From Bacteroidota bacterium (GTDB lineage: Bacteria; Bacteroidota; Bacteroidia; Flavobacteriales; Schleiferiaceae), in the NCBI GenBank assembly GCA_024742495.1, contig JANSYJ010000002.1:434001-498000 (forward strand): a stretch of 64,000 nucleotides of DNA, written 5' to 3'. The notes beneath the pieces were generated by a model. It saw only the letters and a program-made list of their open reading frames with translations. It did not search any database and had not been told where the DNA came from. Shown one piece after another: positions 8,921 to 25,339 of the stretch. A program made the translations under genes and the position numbers. Each line of letters opens with the position of its first letter. Position 1 is the first letter of the stretch.

Positions 8921-9439
8921 CTATTGAGAACTAGGAAAGTCCTCCCAAGAAGGATTAGCCAGGAAAACTTGCCAGATTTTTTCGTTTTGGGAGCCAAAGG
9001 ATTTTTCTTGCAAAACCAAGATGAGATCGAGCTCTAGAGTGGGGCTTAAATTGGTAGAAACGAGATGGCTCAGGTACTCGGAACTATTTAGAGCCTTAAA
9101 CTCCACCGCGGTGGCACCCGGCGCTAATTGAAAGCGCGGTAGCAAGGCGAATAATGAATCAACTTGCAAGGAATCAGCCCTTCCATGCTGAAAGGAGCGG
9201 GGTAAAGTACTTTGTATATAGGCTTGGTTAGCGGGCTTATGTTGATTGGACAGATACAGCGCATTGCCTCGCAGAAAAAGGGATCTTGCCTTTTGAATCC
9301 CTTGCCTGGTAAAGGCTAAACTATCCTCCTTAGTTAGCTCTTGCTTCACAAAGCGTTTTTCTAAAACTTCATAAGATTGAGCCTCGGCCGGTAGCCATGT
9401 GAATAAGGTTAAGCCTACAAGGAATTTTAGGGTCTTCAT
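8921..9439 (-). CDS. Small exported protein, second gene of a membrane/secreted pair
   Basis: A 172-residue exported protein. The start is the ATG at 9437-9439, which begins a clear signal peptide (MKTLKFLVGLTLFTWLPAEAQ). A longer frame upstream would add unrelated residues overlapping the preceding gene. The mature protein is mostly helical and polar. No family is recognised. It begins 1 nt after the stop codon of the membrane protein gene (stop at 9441-9443), so the two are almost certainly one operon and possibly translationally coupled. The mature segment FALLPRFQLAPGATAVEF has no obvious enzymatic motif. Confidence 0.7.
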   Translation of the reverse strand: MKTLKFLVGLTLFTWLPAEAQSYEVLEKRFVKQELTKEDSLAFTRQGIQKARSLFLRGNALYLSNQHKPANQAYIQSTLPRSFQHGRADSLQVDSLFALLPRFQLAPGATAVEFKALNSSEYLSHLVSTNLSPTLELDLILVLQEKSFGSQNEKIWQVFLANPSWEDFPSSQ

Positions 9440-9440
9440 T

Positions 9441-10313
9441 TTAGTCGTTTTTTTGAACAAATCGCAAGCGGTAAATACTGCCTTCACGGTATATAATATC
9501 TTGAATCTCCAAATTTCTAAGCGGGTCTATTGGTAAAAGCAGTCGCTCGATAAACTCTTCACGGTTCAGTAGTTCTATGCCTTGAAACTGGGGGTGACTC
9601 TGAAAAATTTTGGCATCAGGATGGATGGCCTCCAATAATTGTTCTTGTCGTTTCTTCAAGTCTTGGACATCGCTGCGACTAAAGTAATTGAGCATTAGTG
9701 CATAGTCGTCCGGGTATAGGTTGATCTCCATGGTATCCATTTTCGGTACGAACACCTGCTGGATTTTATAATAGGCACCCTTTATCTCTAAACTGTCTTC
9801 ATATTTGGCTTCCGCTTTTTGTAGACTATGAGCTTTCTTTTCATCTGAAATCAAAGTAATATTCAAGTCCTTAAAAGGAATTTCTTTTTGAGTATAAGCA
9901 TCCATAAATCGCAAATTTACCTTCTGACTATGGGGCCAAAAGAGAAAAAACAATACCGCTGCAAGTATGAGTAGTAGCGGAAGCAGCCAAAGTTTGGCCT
10001 TCTTGGGTGCAGGTCCTGCTTTCTCGGTTTTTTGCCTTTGACAAAATTCTTCCCAAGAGGCGTAATCACAGTAGCGAGCCAGCAGTTGCAGAACATCAAT
10101 TCGCGGCAGCTTTGGATGATGGTTTTTAAGGTGGGTATAAAACCATTTTTCACTAACGCTGCTTTGGCACACAGCCATTAAATCTTCCTGAAACAAGCTA
10201 ATATCCTGACCGCTATAATCGCCAAAGTCCTTGTAAATAGACAAGCGTTTAGCAGCCTGATCTTGCAGTTCCTTTTTTAAGGCTTCCAGACATTGTGCTG
10301 GATTCTCATGCAT
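9441..10313 (-). CDS. Single-pass membrane protein with cytoplasmic N-terminal domain, function unknown
   Basis: A 290-residue protein. Start chosen at the ATG 10311-10313, 6 nt after a TAACTTTG element; the longer frame begins with a TTG inside that element. An N-terminal cytoplasmic helical domain of about 95 residues (with HPKLPRIDVLQLLARYCDY and WEEFC) has the look of a small helix-bundle of the kind Bacteroidota place in front of membrane anchors. A lysine-rich stretch (PAPKKAK) and a single membrane helix (about 108-128, LWLLPLLLILAAVLFFLFW) follow. The C-terminal half is periplasmic. This topology suggests a signal relay or anchor between cytoplasm and periplasm, but no family is known to me. 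It is co-transcribed with the secreted protein downstream. Confidence 0.72.
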   Translation of the reverse strand: MHENPAQCLEALKKELQDQAAKRLSIYKDFGDYSGQDISLFQEDLMAVCQSSVSEKWFYTHLKNHHPKLPRIDVLQLLARYCDYASWEEFCQRQKTEKAGPAPKKAKLWLLPLLLILAAVLFFLFWPHSQKVNLRFMDAYTQKEIPFKDLNITLISDEKKAHSLQKAEAKYEDSLEIKGAYYKIQQVFVPKMDTMEINLYPDDYALMLNYFSRSDVQDLKKRQEQLLEAIHPDAKIFQSHPQFQGIELLNREEFIERLLLPIDPLRNLEIQDIIYREGSIYRLRFVQKND

Positions 10314-10319
10314 GCACTT

Positions 10320-10327
10320 CAAAGTTA
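10320..10327 (-). promoter_or_regulatory. Bacteroidota -7 promoter element for the membrane/secreted pair
   Basis: Minus-strand TAACTTTG matches TAnnTTTG. It ends 6 nt before the ATG at 10313, so the 5' leader would be almost absent. Confidence 0.6.
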
Positions 10328-10343
10328 AATAAACGACTCTCTT

Positions 10344-10405
10344 CTGCCTTTGTAAAGGGCTTGTAAAATATTTTACAAGTATAAGACAAGGAATCTACAA
10401 GGCAG
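10344..10405. promoter_or_regulatory. Nested inverted repeats with a perfect 20-bp palindrome (candidate operator)
   Basis: The divergent region between the membrane/secreted pair and the SIMPL-like gene contains CTTGTAAAATATTTTACAAG at 10360-10379, a perfect palindrome. It is flanked by a second inverted repeat, CTGCCTTTGTA (10344-10354) and TACAAGGCAG (10396-10405). The palindrome lies just upstream of the -7 element at 10320-10327. A dimeric regulator could bind here and control both directions. No regulator gene is adjacent. Confidence 0.5.
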
Positions 10406-10454
10406 AGTATTCCCCTTCATTGACTTTTGAACTCGAAATAAAAAATCAAATCAG

Positions 10455-11456
10455 ATGCAAGTATTTAGAATTCTCATTTTAGTGATCTTCGGCTTCAGTG
10501 GCACCTTAGCCTACGGCCAGGCAAAAGGTAATTATGATTACCGTTCGGTTCAAAACACTTTTATCCATAATCAGTCTCAGCTAATTCAAAGCTCATACTT
10601 AGCCAGCTTAGAAGCACATGGCACCAATACCCTCAGAGTACGAGGATTGATGAACTGCGAGCCGAGCAGTTATCTAGCGATTTTTAGTCTTACCCAAGTC
10701 GGTAAAGACCAGGAAGAAACAAGTGCTCTGGTGCAGGCAAAGACGGATAGCATTTTGGCTAAGCTCGCTGCGCAGGGAATTGAGACGGAGATGTATGTCG
10801 ATATGATTTCTTTCATCCCCATTTTTGAAATGGAGCTTTCTCGAAAGCTTTTCAGTAAGAACACCTATAATGAAATCCCCAAGGGTTTTGAATTAAAGAA
10901 GAACCTGCATTTTAGATACTCCGATCCGGCCGTGCTCAATGAAATTTTGAGTCTTTGTGCCCAGCATGAAATTTATGACCTGGTGCGGGTAGATTATTTT
11001 ATTGAAGATTTAGAAAGTCTTAAAAGCAAAATGGTGGCTAAGGCAGAAACCTTGCTCCAATCTAAAATAGGTCGATATGAAAGACTTTTGGGGGCAGATT
11101 TTAAGAACCAACGCAGACGGATGGCCGAGGGTTTTAATCTCCATTATCCCATTGAGCAGTATCAAACATACACCGCCTATGTGAGTAATAAGTTCAATGT
11201 GAAAGCAGGAGCAGGGGTGAATGAAGTACCCAAAACCACCAGTGAATTTTACATGCCTAAAATGGCAAAGGGTTATGACTTTGTAGAAAACCCCAGCATT
11301 TTGGCCCCAGTGGTGCAAATGGAGTACGAATTGGTTTTACAACTCGATCCGCGCCCCCAAGCTCCTCAAGCTCCCAAGGAAATCACTAAAGAGGTAATTA
11401 AAAAAGAAGTTTTTATCATTGATGGAAATGGGCAATTGAAGAAGATTGAGTTTTGA
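10455..11456 (+). CDS. SIMPL (DUF541)-like exported protein
   Basis: A 333-residue exported protein with a signal peptide ending LAYGQ (about residue 22). The body follows the SIMPL-domain pattern. It opens with NTLRVRGLMNCEPSSYLAIFSLTQ, then a helix containing ALVQAKTDSILAKLAAQGIE. A later ILSLCAQHEIYDLVRVDYFIEDLESLK is followed by the AKAETLLQSKIGRYERLLG helix. The match is by eye and moderately divergent. SIMPL proteins are periplasmic or outer-membrane oligomers of unclear function. The C-terminus (about 290-333) is proline- and lysine-rich. It is divergently transcribed from the membrane/secreted pair across the palindrome. Confidence 0.6.
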   Translation: MQVFRILILVIFGFSGTLAYGQAKGNYDYRSVQNTFIHNQSQLIQSSYLASLEAHGTNTLRVRGLMNCEPSSYLAIFSLTQVGKDQEETSALVQAKTDSILAKLAAQGIETEMYVDMISFIPIFEMELSRKLFSKNTYNEIPKGFELKKNLHFRYSDPAVLNEILSLCAQHEIYDLVRVDYFIEDLESLKSKMVAKAETLLQSKIGRYERLLGADFKNQRRRMAEGFNLHYPIEQYQTYTAYVSNKFNVKAGAGVNEVPKTTSEFYMPKMAKGYDFVENPSILAPVVQMEYELVLQLDPRPQAPQAPKEITKEVIKKEVFIIDGNGQLKKIEF

Positions 11457-13081: not shown

Positions 13082-13735
13082 CTACCACACATAACTAACA
13101 TAGACTTTAAAAGCAACATCGCCGCCGGCATCCAATGTGAAAGTTGAAGGGAACTTGTTGTTACTACTATACGGTGTGAAAAGTATACCTCCCATAAAAT
13201 CATCATTATCAAAGTCATCATAGTCGTATAAGGATATGGCATATTGATCATTCGGCGATTCCAAATCAAATACAGGATTTACATCAAAACTATGGTTCGT
13301 TGAAGGGTCGGCGTTCTGAATGAAACTCGGGTACTCCCACAGGAGATTATTATTTTTAGCAATTATGGGGTAGATATCTGGGCCACTCGTAAAGTCCCAT
13401 CCTGCACCATTATCCGTAGCTGGAAAGCGCGTTACTTCTATGCGACTAATACGGATTTTACTAGGAGTAATTTGTTGACTACAGTCTGCTCCAGTATAAC
13501 CTTCAGGGCAAACACATGCGCCGTTCACACAATCTCCGCCGTTTAAACATACAACGTTAAAGCAGGCATCAAAGGTTTCACATTGCGCCCCGCTATAACC
13601 CTCAGGACAATTACAACTCCCATCAATGCATGCCCCGCCATTTAAGCATGTTATATCATCGCATGGATCTTTTTTACAGCTTGCAAGACTTAGAACAGCG
13701 GAGAGTAGAATTAAGGTTAAGGATAAATTTCTCAT
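13082..13735 (-). CDS. Lipoprotein with two EGF-like domains and a C2-like C-terminal domain
   Basis: A 217-residue outer-membrane or periplasmic lipoprotein. The lipobox SLASC places the lipidated cysteine at residue 20. Two adjacent EGF-like modules follow (about 25-53 and 57-85), each with six cysteines and the CPEGYSGAQC / CPEGYTGADC ending. Residues about 90-217 form a beta-rich domain with the acidic run LYDYDDFDNDDFMGG, resembling the calcium-binding loop of a C2 domain. The C2 call is inference from pattern only. EGF-like modules are uncommon in bacteria but recur in Bacteroidota surface proteins. A function in adhesion or calcium-dependent binding is plausible but unproven. Confidence 0.78.
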   Translation of the reverse strand: MRNLSLTLILLSAVLSLASCKKDPCDDITCLNGGACIDGSCNCPEGYSGAQCETFDACFNVVCLNGGDCVNGACVCPEGYTGADCSQQITPSKIRISRIEVTRFPATDNGAGWDFTSGPDIYPIIAKNNNLLWEYPSFIQNADPSTNHSFDVNPVFDLESPNDQYAISLYDYDDFDNDDFMGGILFTPYSSNNKFPSTFTLDAGGDVAFKVYVSYVW

Positions 13736-19433: not shown

Positions 19434-19482
19434 TCAGTCCGTTAAATTTAGTTTAAGTGAAAGCATTCGGCGCGCTATGTCG

Positions 19483-19490
19483 TACTTTTG
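19483..19490 (+). promoter_or_regulatory. Bacteroidota -7 promoter element for the large surface protein
   Basis: TACTTTTG matches TAnnTTTG and lies 23 nt before the ATG at 19514. It sits inside a longer upstream extension of the frame, which argues against the earlier start. Confidence 0.65.
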
Positions 19491-19513
19491 CACTCTCTAA
19501 AACTCTGAATAAT

Positions 19514-22500
19514 ATGAAGAATCTTACGCTCTGTCTTCTTGTATTAATTAGCTCCTTCGCTAGTGCGCAGACCTACAATATGATCCGCAATAGCTCGGAC
19601 ACCGCAACCGATTGTAATGGAACCCTTTATGATCATGGCGGTCCAACGGGCTCTTATTTCAACAGTTCAAGCGACAATTTTTATATAATCCCAGCTGGTG
19701 GCAGTTCCATTGATATCACCTTCACGGCTTTTAGCTTAGAGTCATGCTGCGACCGGGTGCGTATTTACGATAATGTTAATGGTACCCTTTTGGGAACTTA
19801 TGGCGGAACAAGCATGCCCAATGGCGGTGCTCCTATAAATGTTCCCAGTGGTGAGGCCAGGATTTGGTTTACCTCCGATTATTCGGTAACCCGCTCGGGT
19901 TTTGCTCTTACCTGGACTGCAGGTGGAACAACCGCTCCAGTCGCTTCTTTCAGTCCTAGTACGCCAACACCGGCTTTAAACCAACCCGTTCTTTTTAGCA
20001 ATACTTCCTCTGGGGGTGGTGGTTCTAATCTTTGGACATTTGGTGATGGCGACTCTTCTACGGCAGTTAGTCCTAGTCATGCTTATTCAAGTCCAGGAAC
20101 TTATACAGTTACCTTATTCCACAATAACTGCTATGGCGCCGATACCATTACGGGAACCGTTACGGTTCAGGCTGCTTCGGTAGTATCTTTTACACCCGAT
20201 AGCTTAAGTGGAACGGTAGTATGTGGCGGAATTTACCAAGACACGCTAAACTACCAATACATTTCTGGTGGCGATGCCTTTTACGATGTGAGTGTGCGTT
20301 CAATAAGCGACCAAAGCTATGTGAATGCCAATTTCGAATCGAGCTTAGCGCCCTTCTTAAGATCAGCAACTGCTTCAAGCAGCTTTAACTCTAGCATTGT
20401 GCTGGGTAATGCTGGTCAGGGTAGTGCCTTTTTGCAACTTAGCGGTTATGCCGCTTTGGGCGATGGAGTTTATGTAGATCCTAATGGCAGCGATGGAAAC
20501 TACCTTTCCTATCAGGTTTATTCCAGCACCTCCTCACGTTCATACATGCGCTTGGGCGATGATATTAATGGTGCTTACTATACCGTTTTAGGTATTGAAG
20601 TTTATTTCAGCAGCTTAAGGGTACATGGTTATTTTGGAACTTATACCGCCACGCTTCCAAGTGGAACTTGGAATACCATCGAAGTGCGTAATATCGATTA
20701 CACCGCTCGTACCGCAGATGTTTATTTAAATGGCAGTCCGGTAATGACGGGTGTTGTCTTCGATAGTTTTAACGCTATGGAGATCGATCGCATTGATATT
20801 GCCAATTTTAGCAGCTCGGCCTCTGTGGCCTATGATGCGATTGAGTTTAAAAAATTAGGAGACATTTCGGAAGTTACCCTTACCGATACCATCGGTGTTA
20901 CCAGTGGTACCCAAGCGATTCCAGTATCTATTGACTTTACCAATTCTACCGTTGGCCTACGCCAATACATGTTAGAAATTAGAACCAGCGCAGTAGGTGC
21001 CGACACTTTAATAGAAGTTCCAATAAATGTTCAAGTAACGGGAGCGCCTAATTTTGTAGCTACCAGTGCTTGCTTAAATTACGATACCACCTACATTGGC
21101 TTAAGCAGTTCCGATTCCCTTTATATTTATAATACGGGTTGTGATAGTTTAAATCTTAGCAGCTTAAGTACCTCCAATAGTGATTTTAGCATTGCTAATA
21201 CCAGCTATAATTTAGCACCTGGCGATTCGGCTCTAGTTTTTGTGAGCTTTACCCCATCGGCCAGTGGAATTGTAAATGATACCCTTTTCCTCAATGGAAA
21301 TTTAGATACCACTATTTGCCTTTCAGCAGAAGCTTTTACTGCACCATCCATTGCCTTTGATAGCGCTTCTTACACCTTGAACTCTTATGGCTGTAATGAC
21401 AGTATTCCAATGTCATTCTACCTTTATAATAATGGCTCCGGGGCTAATTTAAATTGGAATCTTACCACTGGCGTTTCCCTATTAGACGATTTCGAGAATG
21501 GTTTTAATTCGGCTATTTGGACCACTCAAGGATCTAACTCGATTTTTAATGGTTGTTATGAGCGTTCGGGTACCAATGCCCTCTCCATGATGGGAACCAA
21601 CCGCACCGCGGAAACCGTATTAATGAATCTTTCGCAAGGAGATTCTGTAGGCCTTTGGGCCTTCCCAGGAAATAGCGGCGGTACAGGCTGTGAAAATCCG
21701 GATAACGGAGAAGACCTATTGGTACAATATCGCTTAAGCGGAACTTTCTCCTGGATTACCATTGGCACCATTTATAATTATAACACCGCTGCGGCTTATT
21801 ACTCTTTCCCTATTCCGGTGAATGGATTAATGCAAGTACGCTTGTATCAGCAAAGTTATACAGGCTCTGGTTTTGATCATTATCGCGTAGATGATTTCCG
21901 CATTGTGAGCATTTCCTCTTCTACAAGCTTTAGTCCTAATACAGGGCAAACTGCCGCTGGCGATTCCGTTCAGGTTAGTGGTTATTTTCAAGTGGGAGAT
22001 TTAAACAGTGGTACTTACAACCGTAGCTTAAGAGTACAGAGCAATGACCCTGCTTTCCCCGATACGGTTATTACAGTGAGCATCAACGTTTTTGGTGAAC
22101 CCGATTTATGGGCTGCAAGCGCTTGTGCTAATTTCGATACCCTCTATACCGGAGCGGTAAAAACTGACTCGGTATTAGTTATTAATCAGGGTTGTGATGA
22201 TCTTACCTTAAGTTCTTACAGCTTAGGGACCAATCAGTTTAGCGAAAACTTGATCGCTCAAACCATCAGTCCAGATGATTCAACTTGGATAGTGGTTGAT
22301 TTTACTCCTGATGGATCCGTACTCGGTCTTATTCGCGATACCCTTACGGTAAGCAATAATGATAGTATCTGGCATTTATGTCTGGAAGGTTTCGCTCAAG
22401 GTGCGCCGCAAGCTAGCTTTAACCCCGATTCTTTATCGGTTACGGTTACCAATTGTGGTGATTCCTTAAGTGTTCCCGTTTACTTGCGCAATACCGGCTT

Positions 22501-25339
22501 AAGTGCCCTTGATTATGTGTACCAGCAAGGTAATCGCCAAAGTGGAAATATTAATGTAGCGGTAATGGGTACTAGTACCTATACCACGGAGCGCATCAAC
22601 CTTTACAATATTGCAGCGGGAATGTCGGATGTGAATGTGGCGCTTATTTACCCAAGCACAGCGGCCGACGTTACGGCAGAATTAGATACCATGGATGTTT
22701 TAATTCTTCCAGAAGGAAGCTCCACTTTTACTAGTACTACTTTTGCTCCTTCCTATCAAGCATTTGTAAACAATGGTGGCGTGGTGATTTTCGGTTATCA
22801 GAGTTATAGCCAGTCTATCGCTTACAATATCATGCCTATTATCAGTAGCTTTAGCTCGGGCTCACCTATTCCGATTAGCATGCCTAATCACCCTATTGCT
22901 CAAGGTTTACCAGCTACAGGTTTATCGTATTTAAGTGCAACCCAAAGAGTTTCCTTCTCTAATACCGCTAACCTCGATCGTATTGTTGGTGCCGTGGGTA
23001 CTAATGAGGCAGTTGTGGCGGCTCAGCCTTATGGCGATGGTATGGCTATCCACTTGGGATATGACTACTTCCAAACCAATGCCGACATTGACTTAATGCT
23101 CGAAAATGCAATTCGTTGGGGAGCAAGCAGTACTGGTGCACCGGCCTTTATTACCGCTACTCCAGATTCTGGTCAGGTTGCTGTTAATGATTCGGTACTC
23201 ATTAATATTGGCATTAATACCGCTGGTGTTGCCAATGGTACTTACGATTACGATCTGTACTTTGAAACCAATGATCCTGCTAATAATCCACTGCGATTAC
23301 CACTTCACCTAATTGTAAACGGTACAGCGGAGGCCGATGTGGTGGATAGTACCTGTATTAGTTTTGCTGCCACCTTACAAGGAGGAGTTAAGCGCGATAC
23401 TTTTGAAATTTACAATCGCGGCTGCGATACCTTAGACCTTAGTTCTTACATCGCCAACAATGCCGACTTTAGCATCGATAACCTCCCCATGAATGTGGCT
23501 CCCGGTGATACGGCCAAGGTATCGGTTCGTTTCTCTCCATTTAGTGTAGGCTTAAGCACCGATACTATGGAGGTGAGTACTAACGATACTACCGTGTTTA
23601 TCTGCGTAAGCGGAACCGGCGTAGGTGCGGCTCTACCTCAGGTAGATGGCGATACCATTAGCTATACCCTTCAAAAGTGTAAGGTTATTGGCCAAAAACA
23701 AATTAAGGTGAAGAACATTGGTCAAGGCCAAATGAACTTTGATATTGAGTTCGGACGCTTTTCTGATAGCTCCTATGTTCCTTATAACACCTTTGGTGCT
23801 ACTACCAATCACAACTTTAGCGGTTTGCCAAATGCGGCAGATAGTATCAAGCTTCAGATTATAGTAAACGGCGATTACAATTCATTTTCAGAGCGCGCTA
23901 CCCTTTATCTGGATGGCAGCTATTGGCAGATTATGTATGATAATAATTTGTTTTATCAAGCTGATACCATGTATGTAAATATTGTTGGTCCACAAGTGGC
24001 TACTCTGTTAGCTGATGGTATTTTAGACGTTGGCTTGTACAATAGCTCTAGTGTGGATGGTAATGCCGGATCTTACCACAAGGTAAATGTAGAAGTAGTG
24101 CAAACCGTAAACTGGGTATCTGTAGTAGGGGCCAATGCGGGCACTATTCCCGCTACCGATTCGGTAAACCGGAACTTACTCTTTAATGCAGCCTTACTTC
24201 CTTTAGGAACGCATTACACCACTATGATTGTTAATAATAACAGTCCTAGTCAGCCGAGTTATCGCAAGCCGGTTAAGTTTAATGTAATCTCAGAACCAGA
24301 AATGTTGGTGAGTGATACTTGTGCTTACTTTACCCTAACGCCATTAGGCGATACCACTTCTCGTTCGGTAACCATTTATAATGATGGCTGTGATCCTTTG
24401 GTGATTAGCAGCATGACTTCTACTTCCAGCCAGTTTAAGATTTACCAGAGTGCAGCTACGGTTCAAGTAGGGGATAGCTTGGTTTTAGATATCGATTTCA
24501 TTCCAACTACGGTGAACAATTTTGCCGCCTCCATTTTCATCATTAGTAATGATACCAACCGTACAATATGCCTAAACGGTCAGTCGGGGGCTATGCCTGT
24601 ATCTGACTTTAGCTTTAGCGATGAGAATATCTGTATTGGGGAAGTATCTTTTGACAATAGTAACTCCCAGTATTTCAATACCCTTTTCTGGGACTTTGGT
24701 GATGGCATTACTTCAAATCAAAGTAATCCAACGCATATATTCCCGGCACCGGGTACCTATCGCGTTAGCTTACGCACCACGAATAGCATTGGCTTTGATA
24801 CCATTAGTAAGTTGGTAACGGTAAATCCTTTGGTGGTGAACTTTGCTATGAGCAATGATACCATTCAATTGAGCGATACCGCTTATTTCAATGATAGTAC
24901 ACCCAATGCAACTACTTGGATTTGGGATTTTGGTGATGGTAGTTCAAGTACGCAACAGAATCCTAGTCATCAATATGCGGCCCAAGGACTTTACAATGTA
25001 AAGCTTACCGTTATTGATAACCGATCTTGTAGTAATACTTTGACCCAGCAAATTCTGGTAGAAAACCAGATTGGTTTATTAGAATGGCAGTTGAGCAATA
25101 GCTGGGCCTTATACCCTAATCCATCCAATGGGCGAATAATCCTGAGCAAGGAAAATGGCGATTGGGAAAATTATAATTTCCAAATTGTAGATGCTCAAGG
25201 ACGTAAAGTAGCGCAGATTGCTGGTGCAAACCAAAACAGCATTGAGGTACAAACCAATTTAGCAGATGGTTTTTACCAATTGCAAGTCTTAAAACAAGGA
25301 CAATTATTAGATCAACGTAGGTTGATAATTAAAAGATAA
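19514..25339 (+). CDS. Giant modular surface protein (CUB, PKD, HYDIN-like, T9SS type A sorting domain)
   Basis: A 1941-residue secreted protein; the start is chosen at the ATG opening a clean signal peptide (MKNLTLCLLVLISSFASAQ). Approximate domains: CUB 33-136 (CNGTLYDHGG...SCCDRVRIYD); PKD 140-221 (WTFGDGDSS); a LamG-like segment 273-453; four Cys-patterned HYDIN/ASPM-like repeats near 510-606, 860-963, 1268-1370 and 1593-1693, each with a central GCD-x-L and flanking cysteines; a reelin-like segment 658-800 (NSIFNGCYERSGTNAL); a glutamine-amidotransferase/ThuA-like Rossmann segment 1011-1203 (NVAVMGT...DVLILPEG...IHLGYDYF); two more PKD domains 1695-1852; and a T9SS sorting domain 1858-1941 (LYPNPSNGRI...). 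It is exported by the Sec and type IX pathways, probably to the cell surface, for adhesion or glycan binding. A terminator follows. Confidence 0.88.
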   Translation: MKNLTLCLLVLISSFASAQTYNMIRNSSDTATDCNGTLYDHGGPTGSYFNSSSDNFYIIPAGGSSIDITFTAFSLESCCDRVRIYDNVNGTLLGTYGGTSMPNGGAPINVPSGEARIWFTSDYSVTRSGFALTWTAGGTTAPVASFSPSTPTPALNQPVLFSNTSSGGGGSNLWTFGDGDSSTAVSPSHAYSSPGTYTVTLFHNNCYGADTITGTVTVQAASVVSFTPDSLSGTVVCGGIYQDTLNYQYISGGDAFYDVSVRSISDQSYVNANFESSLAPFLRSATASSSFNSSIVLGNAGQGSAFLQLSGYAALGDGVYVDPNGSDGNYLSYQVYSSTSSRSYMRLGDDINGAYYTVLGIEVYFSSLRVHGYFGTYTATLPSGTWNTIEVRNIDYTARTADVYLNGSPVMTGVVFDSFNAMEIDRIDIANFSSSASVAYDAIEFKKLGDISEVTLTDTIGVTSGTQAIPVSIDFTNSTVGLRQYMLEIRTSAVGADTLIEVPINVQVTGAPNFVATSACLNYDTTYIGLSSSDSLYIYNTGCDSLNLSSLSTSNSDFSIANTSYNLAPGDSALVFVSFTPSASGIVNDTLFLNGNLDTTICLSAEAFTAPSIAFDSASYTLNSYGCNDSIPMSFYLYNNGSGANLNWNLTTGVSLLDDFENGFNSAIWTTQGSNSIFNGCYERSGTNALSMMGTNRTAETVLMNLSQGDSVGLWAFPGNSGGTGCENPDNGEDLLVQYRLSGTFSWITIGTIYNYNTAAAYYSFPIPVNGLMQVRLYQQSYTGSGFDHYRVDDFRIVSISSSTSFSPNTGQTAAGDSVQVSGYFQVGDLNSGTYNRSLRVQSNDPAFPDTVITVSINVFGEPDLWAASACANFDTLYTGAVKTDSVLVINQGCDDLTLSSYSLGTNQFSENLIAQTISPDDSTWIVVDFTPDGSVLGLIRDTLTVSNNDSIWHLCLEGFAQGAPQASFNPDSLSVTVTNCGDSLSVPVYLRNTGLSALDYVYQQGNRQSGNINVAVMGTSTYTTERINLYNIAAGMSDVNVALIYPSTAADVTAELDTMDVLILPEGSSTFTSTTFAPSYQAFVNNGGVVIFGYQSYSQSIAYNIMPIISSFSSGSPIPISMPNHPIAQGLPATGLSYLSATQRVSFSNTANLDRIVGAVGTNEAVVAAQPYGDGMAIHLGYDYFQTNADIDLMLENAIRWGASSTGAPAFITATPDSGQVAVNDSVLINIGINTAGVANGTYDYDLYFETNDPANNPLRLPLHLIVNGTAEADVVDSTCISFAATLQGGVKRDTFEIYNRGCDTLDLSSYIANNADFSIDNLPMNVAPGDTAKVSVRFSPFSVGLSTDTMEVSTNDTTVFICVSGTGVGAALPQVDGDTISYTLQKCKVIGQKQIKVKNIGQGQMNFDIEFGRFSDSSYVPYNTFGATTNHNFSGLPNAADSIKLQIIVNGDYNSFSERATLYLDGSYWQIMYDNNLFYQADTMYVNIVGPQVATLLADGILDVGLYNSSSVDGNAGSYHKVNVEVVQTVNWVSVVGANAGTIPATDSVNRNLLFNAALLPLGTHYTTMIVNNNSPSQPSYRKPVKFNVISEPEMLVSDTCAYFTLTPLGDTTSRSVTIYNDGCDPLVISSMTSTSSQFKIYQSAATVQVGDSLVLDIDFIPTTVNNFAASIFIISNDTNRTICLNGQSGAMPVSDFSFSDENICIGEVSFDNSNSQYFNTLFWDFGDGITSNQSNPTHIFPAPGTYRVSLRTTNSIGFDTISKLVTVNPLVVNFAMSNDTIQLSDTAYFNDSTPNATTWIWDFGDGSSSTQQNPSHQYAAQGLYNVKLTVIDNRSCSNTLTQQILVENQIGLLEWQLSNSWALYPNPSNGRIILSKENGDWENYNFQIVDAQGRKVAQIAGANQNSIEVQTNLADGFYQLQVLKQGQLLDQRRLIIKR

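Follow-up and report, generated by a model that had tools for sequence, protein, structure and literature searches.

The window, by which we mean the whole stretch of 64,000 nt that was analysed, carries a minus-strand pair of genes for a membrane protein (here MEM) and an exported partner protein (EXP), next to a gene for a SIMPL-like exported protein that runs in the opposite direction (Table 1). MEM ends at position 9441 and EXP starts at 9439, which confirms the gap of 1 nt described in an earlier, sequence-only reading of this DNA. The MEM reading frame is also open from a TTG at 10322, but this codon falls within a TAnnTTTG promoter element (TAACTTTG, 10327-10320), making the ATG at 10313 the better start. 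The window MEM appears to be nearly leaderless, with the putative -7 element ending 6 nt before this ATG. At the loci L030-L033 and L035-L037, a search for an ATG of MEM found none, and there the ORF opens with a TTG inside the TAnnTTTG element. Elsewhere in the window, the product of positions 13082-13735 has EGF-like repeats (EGF_2 and EGF of Pfam, both above the cut-off), and the 1960-aa product of positions 19457-25339 combines CUB, HYDIN/ASH-type Ig, and PKD domains with a Por_Secre_tail.

Table 1. Genes, half-sites, and putative promoter elements at the MEM locus of the window (half-sites 3 to 5 are spelled as on the plus strand)
Feature	Position	Strand	Remarks
EXP, exported partner gene	8921..9439	-	172 aa, signal peptide
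MEM, membrane protein gene	9441..10313	-	290 aa; ORF also open from TTG 10322
Putative MEM promoter -7 element TAACTTTG	10320..10327	-	6 nt before ATG 10313
Operator half-site 1, TTGTAAA	10350..10356	+	
Perfect 20-bp palindrome CTTGTAAAATATTTTACAAG	10360..10379		
Operator half-site 2, TTGTAAA	10361..10367	+	left palindrome arm
Operator half-site 3, TTTACAA	10372..10378	-	right palindrome arm
Operator half-site 4, AGACAA	10384..10389	-	weak
Operator half-site 5, TCTACAA	10394..10400	-	ends 21 bp before SIMPL -7 element
Putative SIMPL promoter -7 element GACTTTTG	10422..10429	+	of the Bacteroidota TAnnTTTG type
SIMPL-like exported protein gene	10455..11456	+	divergent to MEM; clade-specific envelope gene here

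MEM relatives occur in 18 of the 99 genomes searched, 14 of them from the family of the window (15 loci) and 4 from a second family, f6. Among the 88 genomes of the window's family that were searched, the same 14 carry MEM and 74 do not. Two pairs of the family loci are near-identical (L030 and L035, L032 and L037). With the window included, the SIMPL-like gene is adjacent and divergent at all 15 family MEM loci and EXP lies downstream at all 12 whose contig reaches that far, and of the 11 other window genes that were tested, not one is conserved at these loci. The SIMPL-like gene is present in 15 of the 88 family genomes, namely the 14 with MEM and, as a diverged copy (G006:C31:20345-21226), a same-genus genome without MEM.

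For the phylum, we used the best 80 of 443 MEM relatives from a scan of genome contigs, with ORFs taken from stop to stop without gene calling. All 80 loci belong to Bacteroidota, with Flavobacteriales, Flammeovirgaceae, Bacteroidales, Chitinophagales, and Saprospiraceae among them (taxa as labelled in the records). A phylum survey scoring at most 13 candidates per genome matched 15 of 392 genomes, all from one order. Only 12 of the 80 loci have a match to the SIMPL-like gene, and a divergent ORF from one of eight recurrent clusters starts within 400 bp of MEM in 78. These clusters, whose names rest on one or two representatives each, are DUF4349 (22 loci), YfbK/vWA (17), SIMPL-like (11), TPR (11), an unnamed exported protein (7), a small membrane protein (5), TonB (3), and Fib_succ_major (2). 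Since MEM and the second gene are kept while the divergent clusters differ, the core is retained as its neighbour changes from clade to clade. At L038, from family f6, the divergent gene seems by reading to encode a small Ala-rich lipoprotein, with no match in Pfam. The divergent protein of the window scores 19.9 bits against SIMPL (PF04402) and its relative at L135 scores 22.2 bits, both below the curated cut-off of 25.2, and we therefore call the gene SIMPL-like instead of filing it as SIMPL. ECF-sigma genes are found in 14 of the 80 loci, about 1.7 to 5.2 kb from MEM and on either side, and the representative at L072 is Pfam-confirmed.

The perfect 20-bp palindrome reported earlier between the two divergent genes is present as CTTGTAAAATATTTTACAAG and is single-copy in the 3.6-Mb genome even when up to 3 mismatches are allowed. 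Judged from the arrangement of the motifs, it is the core of one predicted operator with five half-sites phased at 11 bp, placed between two divergent promoters. The nearest relative, L024, has CTTGTAAAACAATTTACAAG at the palindrome centre, showing that the perfect centre is local, and it is the set of 11-bp-phased half-sites that is the conserved feature of the predicted operator. The second inverted repeat of the sequence-only reading is explained by the outer half-sites 1 and 5; the majority of its additional matching bases are not kept in L024. The dual regulation proposed on these grounds stands insofar as one operator faces both divergent genes; the two repeats, however, make up a single operator of several half-sites and not two controls. 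The palindromic core pattern occurs at 2 places in the window's own genome, the second being inside a glycosyltransferase gene, and the direct-repeat operator pattern with 1 mismatch occurs at one other place.

Throughout the window's family, the operator reads TTGTAAA-N4-TTGTAAA, followed by an inverted TACAA and more phased half-sites. We trained a position matrix (PWM) on 12 distinct sites from this family and applied it to 70 held-out Bacteroidota loci (L070-L139), whose MEM is at most 38 percent identical, searching the whole locus of up to 13 kb on both strands. With the caveat that the loci are related to one another and the counts hence not independent, the best site of the locus lies within 250 bp upstream of MEM in 66/70 cases, against a mean of 3.2 and a maximum of 9 of 70 for 60 column-permuted matrices. 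The upstream site is among the top five of the locus in 69/70; the exceptions to the best rank are L072, L082, and L105, where the upstream site ranks second, and L104, where the best site lies 292 bp upstream. This conservation rules out a chance palindrome, and the comparison across relatives suggested by the sequence-only reading thus ends with a phased operator that is kept at distant loci around a centre that is perfect only locally. The spacings between half-sites peak at 11 and 22 bp for direct and at 12 and 23 bp for inverted pairs, and are nearly absent from 860 kb of flanking control.

Allowing at most 1 mismatch, the family operator is found at 10 places in 9 of the 88 family genomes, all of them at MEM loci, and is absent from all 74 family genomes without MEM; this strict pattern is seen in 9 of the 14 family genomes that carry MEM and not in the other 5. 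The scan was set to 1 mismatch, the counts at 3 mismatches being near the control among the matches listed. In 25 other genomes, the pattern with 3 mismatches gave 85 matches, of which about 32 fall at MEM loci and about 53 outside them, versus 39 for the reversed pattern, and this slight off-locus excess may reflect a small regulon beyond the MEM loci. Flexithrix has two matches to the operator pattern, with 1 and 2 mismatches, and in family f6 the operator is present in the 3 upstream regions inspected (L038, L039, and L041).

The consensus of the Bacteroidota -7 promoter element is TAnnTTTG. We counted the register of the half-sites only at loci with a consensus TAnnTTTG in reach, which are 37/80 on the divergent side and 19/80 on the MEM side. 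Measured from this element, half-sites on the divergent side start at -38 in 30/37 loci, at -49 in 24, at -61/-60 in 25, and at -27 in 9, and those on the MEM side start at -38 in 11/19, at -27 in 5, and at -50 in 8. At the loci of the window's family, the TTTG of the SIMPL side lies 64/65 bp from half-site 2 in 14/15 cases and that of the MEM side 31/32 bp from half-site 1 in 12/15. The fixed register to the -7 elements indicates that the operator shows a fixed face to both promoters. The proximal half-site occupies the place of the -33 element, a position that favours activation, and we lean towards activation rather than repression.

The MEM protein consists of an all-helical region (residues 5-98), a membrane helix at about 108-126, a transthyretin/carboxypeptidase-D-regulatory-like domain (130-202, structural Z up to 8.0), and an NTF2-like domain (202-290, structural Z up to 6.7), both Z scores being middling. 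One hydrophobic segment follows the N-terminal domain in 78/80 loci and a second in none, and the charge bias favours an N-side-in orientation in 61/80, in agreement with the earlier description of a single-pass membrane protein with a helical cytoplasmic domain. In family f6 (L038-L041), MEM is longer (about 390 aa), and its membrane helix is preceded by an extended linker of some 80-100 aa.

The model of the N-terminal domain, which is single-copy in the window's own genome, was built from 83 sequences and shows five helices and no strand (pLDDT 88). By their titles, 31/44 Foldseek rows (22/34 distinct entries) are lambda-repressor/XRE-like or POU DNA-binding structures, and the five-helix arrangement of the model resembles that of DdrO, SinR, C.Esp1396I, and lambda cI. 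The scores are weak, however, with a best Foldseek E of 0.55 and VIA Z scores of at most 5.5 for the HTH rows, the top VIA row being a DNA polymerase (Z 6.7), and there is no convincing match of the 83 N-terminal domains to a Pfam DNA-binding family among the 25 of 37 families listed. The modelled domain is consequently described here as a putative DNA-binding domain with weak resemblance to lambda-repressor-type domains. Its best conserved residues, located in SEKWFY.H.K and PRID.LNLL, would form and support a recognition helix. Matches to RloB (3/83 members, best E 0.00053) and DUF3473 (13/83 members, best E 0.0036) are scattered and were taken as chance. As the sequence-only reading had it, no known family fits either protein: neither MEM nor EXP has a Pfam or NCBIfam family, searches against PDB sequences yielded none that is convincing for MEM, and EXP has no convincing Pfam or PDB sequence match.

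An ORF lies directly behind MEM in 77/80 loci, the other 3 being contig ends. The converged EXP profile, made without the leader, matches 54/80 loci, each time directly behind MEM, with no match elsewhere among 3868 ORFs and with 54/54 recovered when each was left out in turn. A hydrophobic leader is present in 55/56 aligned EXP sequences, and some relatives have a lipobox-like cysteine. Another 23 loci, mostly from Flavobacteriaceae (L072-L137), keep MEM and the operator together with a second gene that the strict profile does not match, usually a shorter ORF that, by reading, carries a leader or a lipoprotein signal. This gene may be a replaced partner or the product of fast evolution, its kinship to EXP being unproven. 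The conserved adjacency asked about earlier therefore holds for an exported-protein gene behind MEM at every locus with room for one, but homology to EXP itself is firm in only the 54. A first iterated profile, in which the leaders were kept and which had not converged after four rounds, matched 73/80 loci, a count that includes by drift a DUF4349 gene of L112; in family f6 this first profile matches the gene behind MEM in 4/4 loci. L031 has, about 2.5 kb away from its true EXP gene, a second short EXP-like match (L031:6259-6381, 41 aa, 44 percent). Kinship of EXP with the periplasmic domains of MEM is unsupported by profile comparison (E 0.24 and 0.72).

The layout of a small signal relay, as had been suspected, is supported. 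We think it fairly probable that MEM, EXP, the operator, and the divergent gene form a membrane-tethered regulator unit that senses the envelope with the help of a periplasmic partner. MEM is tied to the operator by linkage and co-occurrence, and we infer that its cytoplasmic N-terminal domain binds the 11-bp-phased array of half-sites cooperatively, between the promoters of its own and the divergent gene. The transthyretin-like and NTF2-like periplasmic domains, in contact with EXP, would sense the state of the envelope, and the signal would pass via the membrane helix to the operator-bound domain. Both promoters would respond, so that the unit would control its own operon and one exchangeable envelope gene, here the SIMPL-like gene.

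The same arrangement could also act with the opposite sign, MEM repressing both promoters until an envelope signal releases it. This variant shares its probability with the regulator unit described above and is somewhat unlikely in our view. In its favour, half-sites reach into the region where the -33 element of each promoter would be expected, and autorepression is common among XRE-type regulators, but steric blocking alone would need no such exact 11-bp register to the two -7 elements. Moreover, by reading, the sequences of the window's family lack a TTG-type -33 element where one would normally stand, a situation that would fit a promoter dependent on a factor. A different explanation, improbable to a greater degree, is that a separate, unlinked factor binds the operator, MEM being a RodZ-like adaptor with a non-DNA-binding HTH-like domain and MEM, EXP, and the divergent gene being targets of that factor. 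RodZ has a cytoplasmic HTH-like domain, a single membrane helix, and a periplasmic beta domain, the same order of parts as in MEM; the N-terminal domain of MEM matches DNA-binding folds weakly, and the loose off-locus operator matches in the 25 other genomes could be further targets. The operator nevertheless tracks MEM across the phylum though the divergent gene changes, its palindromic core has a single further occurrence in the window's genome, inside a gene, and family genomes without MEM are also without the operator at the strict threshold. The RodZ profiles HTH_25 and DUF4115 gave no match to the full-length window MEM and 18 relatives at E 0.1, and MEM, unlike RodZ, comes with a conserved operator and is followed by an exported-protein gene.

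The sequence-only reading had also likened the pair to an anti-sigma unit, with MEM as the anti-sigma factor and EXP as its periplasmic co-regulator, and a protein that crosses the membrane once and has a helical cytoplasmic domain, encoded beside an exported protein, would look the part. We consider this very improbable, as a scan of 17 window proteins found no sigma factor, the window protein and 18 relatives gave no match to an anti-sigma profile, and the operator architecture fits a DNA-binding regulator. The ECF-sigma genes mentioned above do place a potential partner somewhere in 14 loci, but they are scattered in distance and side.

The regulator unit thus favoured invites comparison with known membrane-bound regulators. 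The defining DNA-binding domain of ToxR/VtrA-type systems is an OmpR-type winged HTH. The excerpt available from one paper (PMC9214523) describes ToxR/ToxS, TcpP/TcpH, VtrA/VtrC, and PsaE/PsaF as co-component systems of enteric bacteria, in which the transcription factor has an N-terminal DNA-binding domain, one membrane helix, and a periplasmic domain, and the gene of its periplasmic partner lies directly behind; the partners are fast-evolving and lipocalin-like, and the target can be a neighbouring gene, as for MarT/FidL and MisL. MEM likewise has an N-terminal cytoplasmic domain, one membrane helix, and a C-terminal periplasmic domain, and the gene for an exported partner adjoins it downstream. 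In contrast, the model of its N-terminal domain is all-helical and strandless instead of winged, no Trans_reg_C match was found for the 83 MEM members among the 25 of 37 families listed, the periplasmic part is transthyretin-like and NTF2-like, and all 80 loci are from Bacteroidota. A further difference is that here the operator is conserved across the phylum with the divergent gene swapped. Given the non-winged N-terminal domain and the other phylum, we do not file the MEM unit as a member of the ToxR/VtrA co-component systems. Our best reading, by analogy, is that it would work like ToxR/ToxS or VtrA/VtrC and be built from different folds.

Transmembrane transcription regulators (TTRs) are described, in the part of PMC10269533 available, as one-component regulators that act from the membrane, with Bacteroidota enriched in them and those of Bacteroides mostly hybrid (about 72 percent). 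Because MEM has no convincing Pfam DNA-binding match, a profile-based survey of TTRs would probably miss the MEM family, and we found no description of this family among the literature matches listed.

We tentatively put forward, as a proposal that may or may not hold, that the MEM units are a second class of co-component envelope signalling, built independently of the first and spread across Bacteroidota. It would combine a non-winged, lambda-repressor-like DNA-binding domain, a transthyretin/NTF2 sensor, an exported partner, an operator of 11-bp-phased half-sites that is kept phylum-wide at a fixed register to both divergent promoters, and an envelope gene that plugs in, the core staying and the output changing. 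The routes by which Bacteroidota sense their envelope are mostly obscure, and DUF4349, YfbK-type vWA, and SIMPL-like proteins are without a clear role. If the proposal is true, one regulator family and its operator would tie these proteins to one shared signal and open their function to testing, the phylum-wide operator offering a ready handle for reporters, and signalling by a membrane-tethered regulator with a partner would have arisen outside the ToxR lineage.
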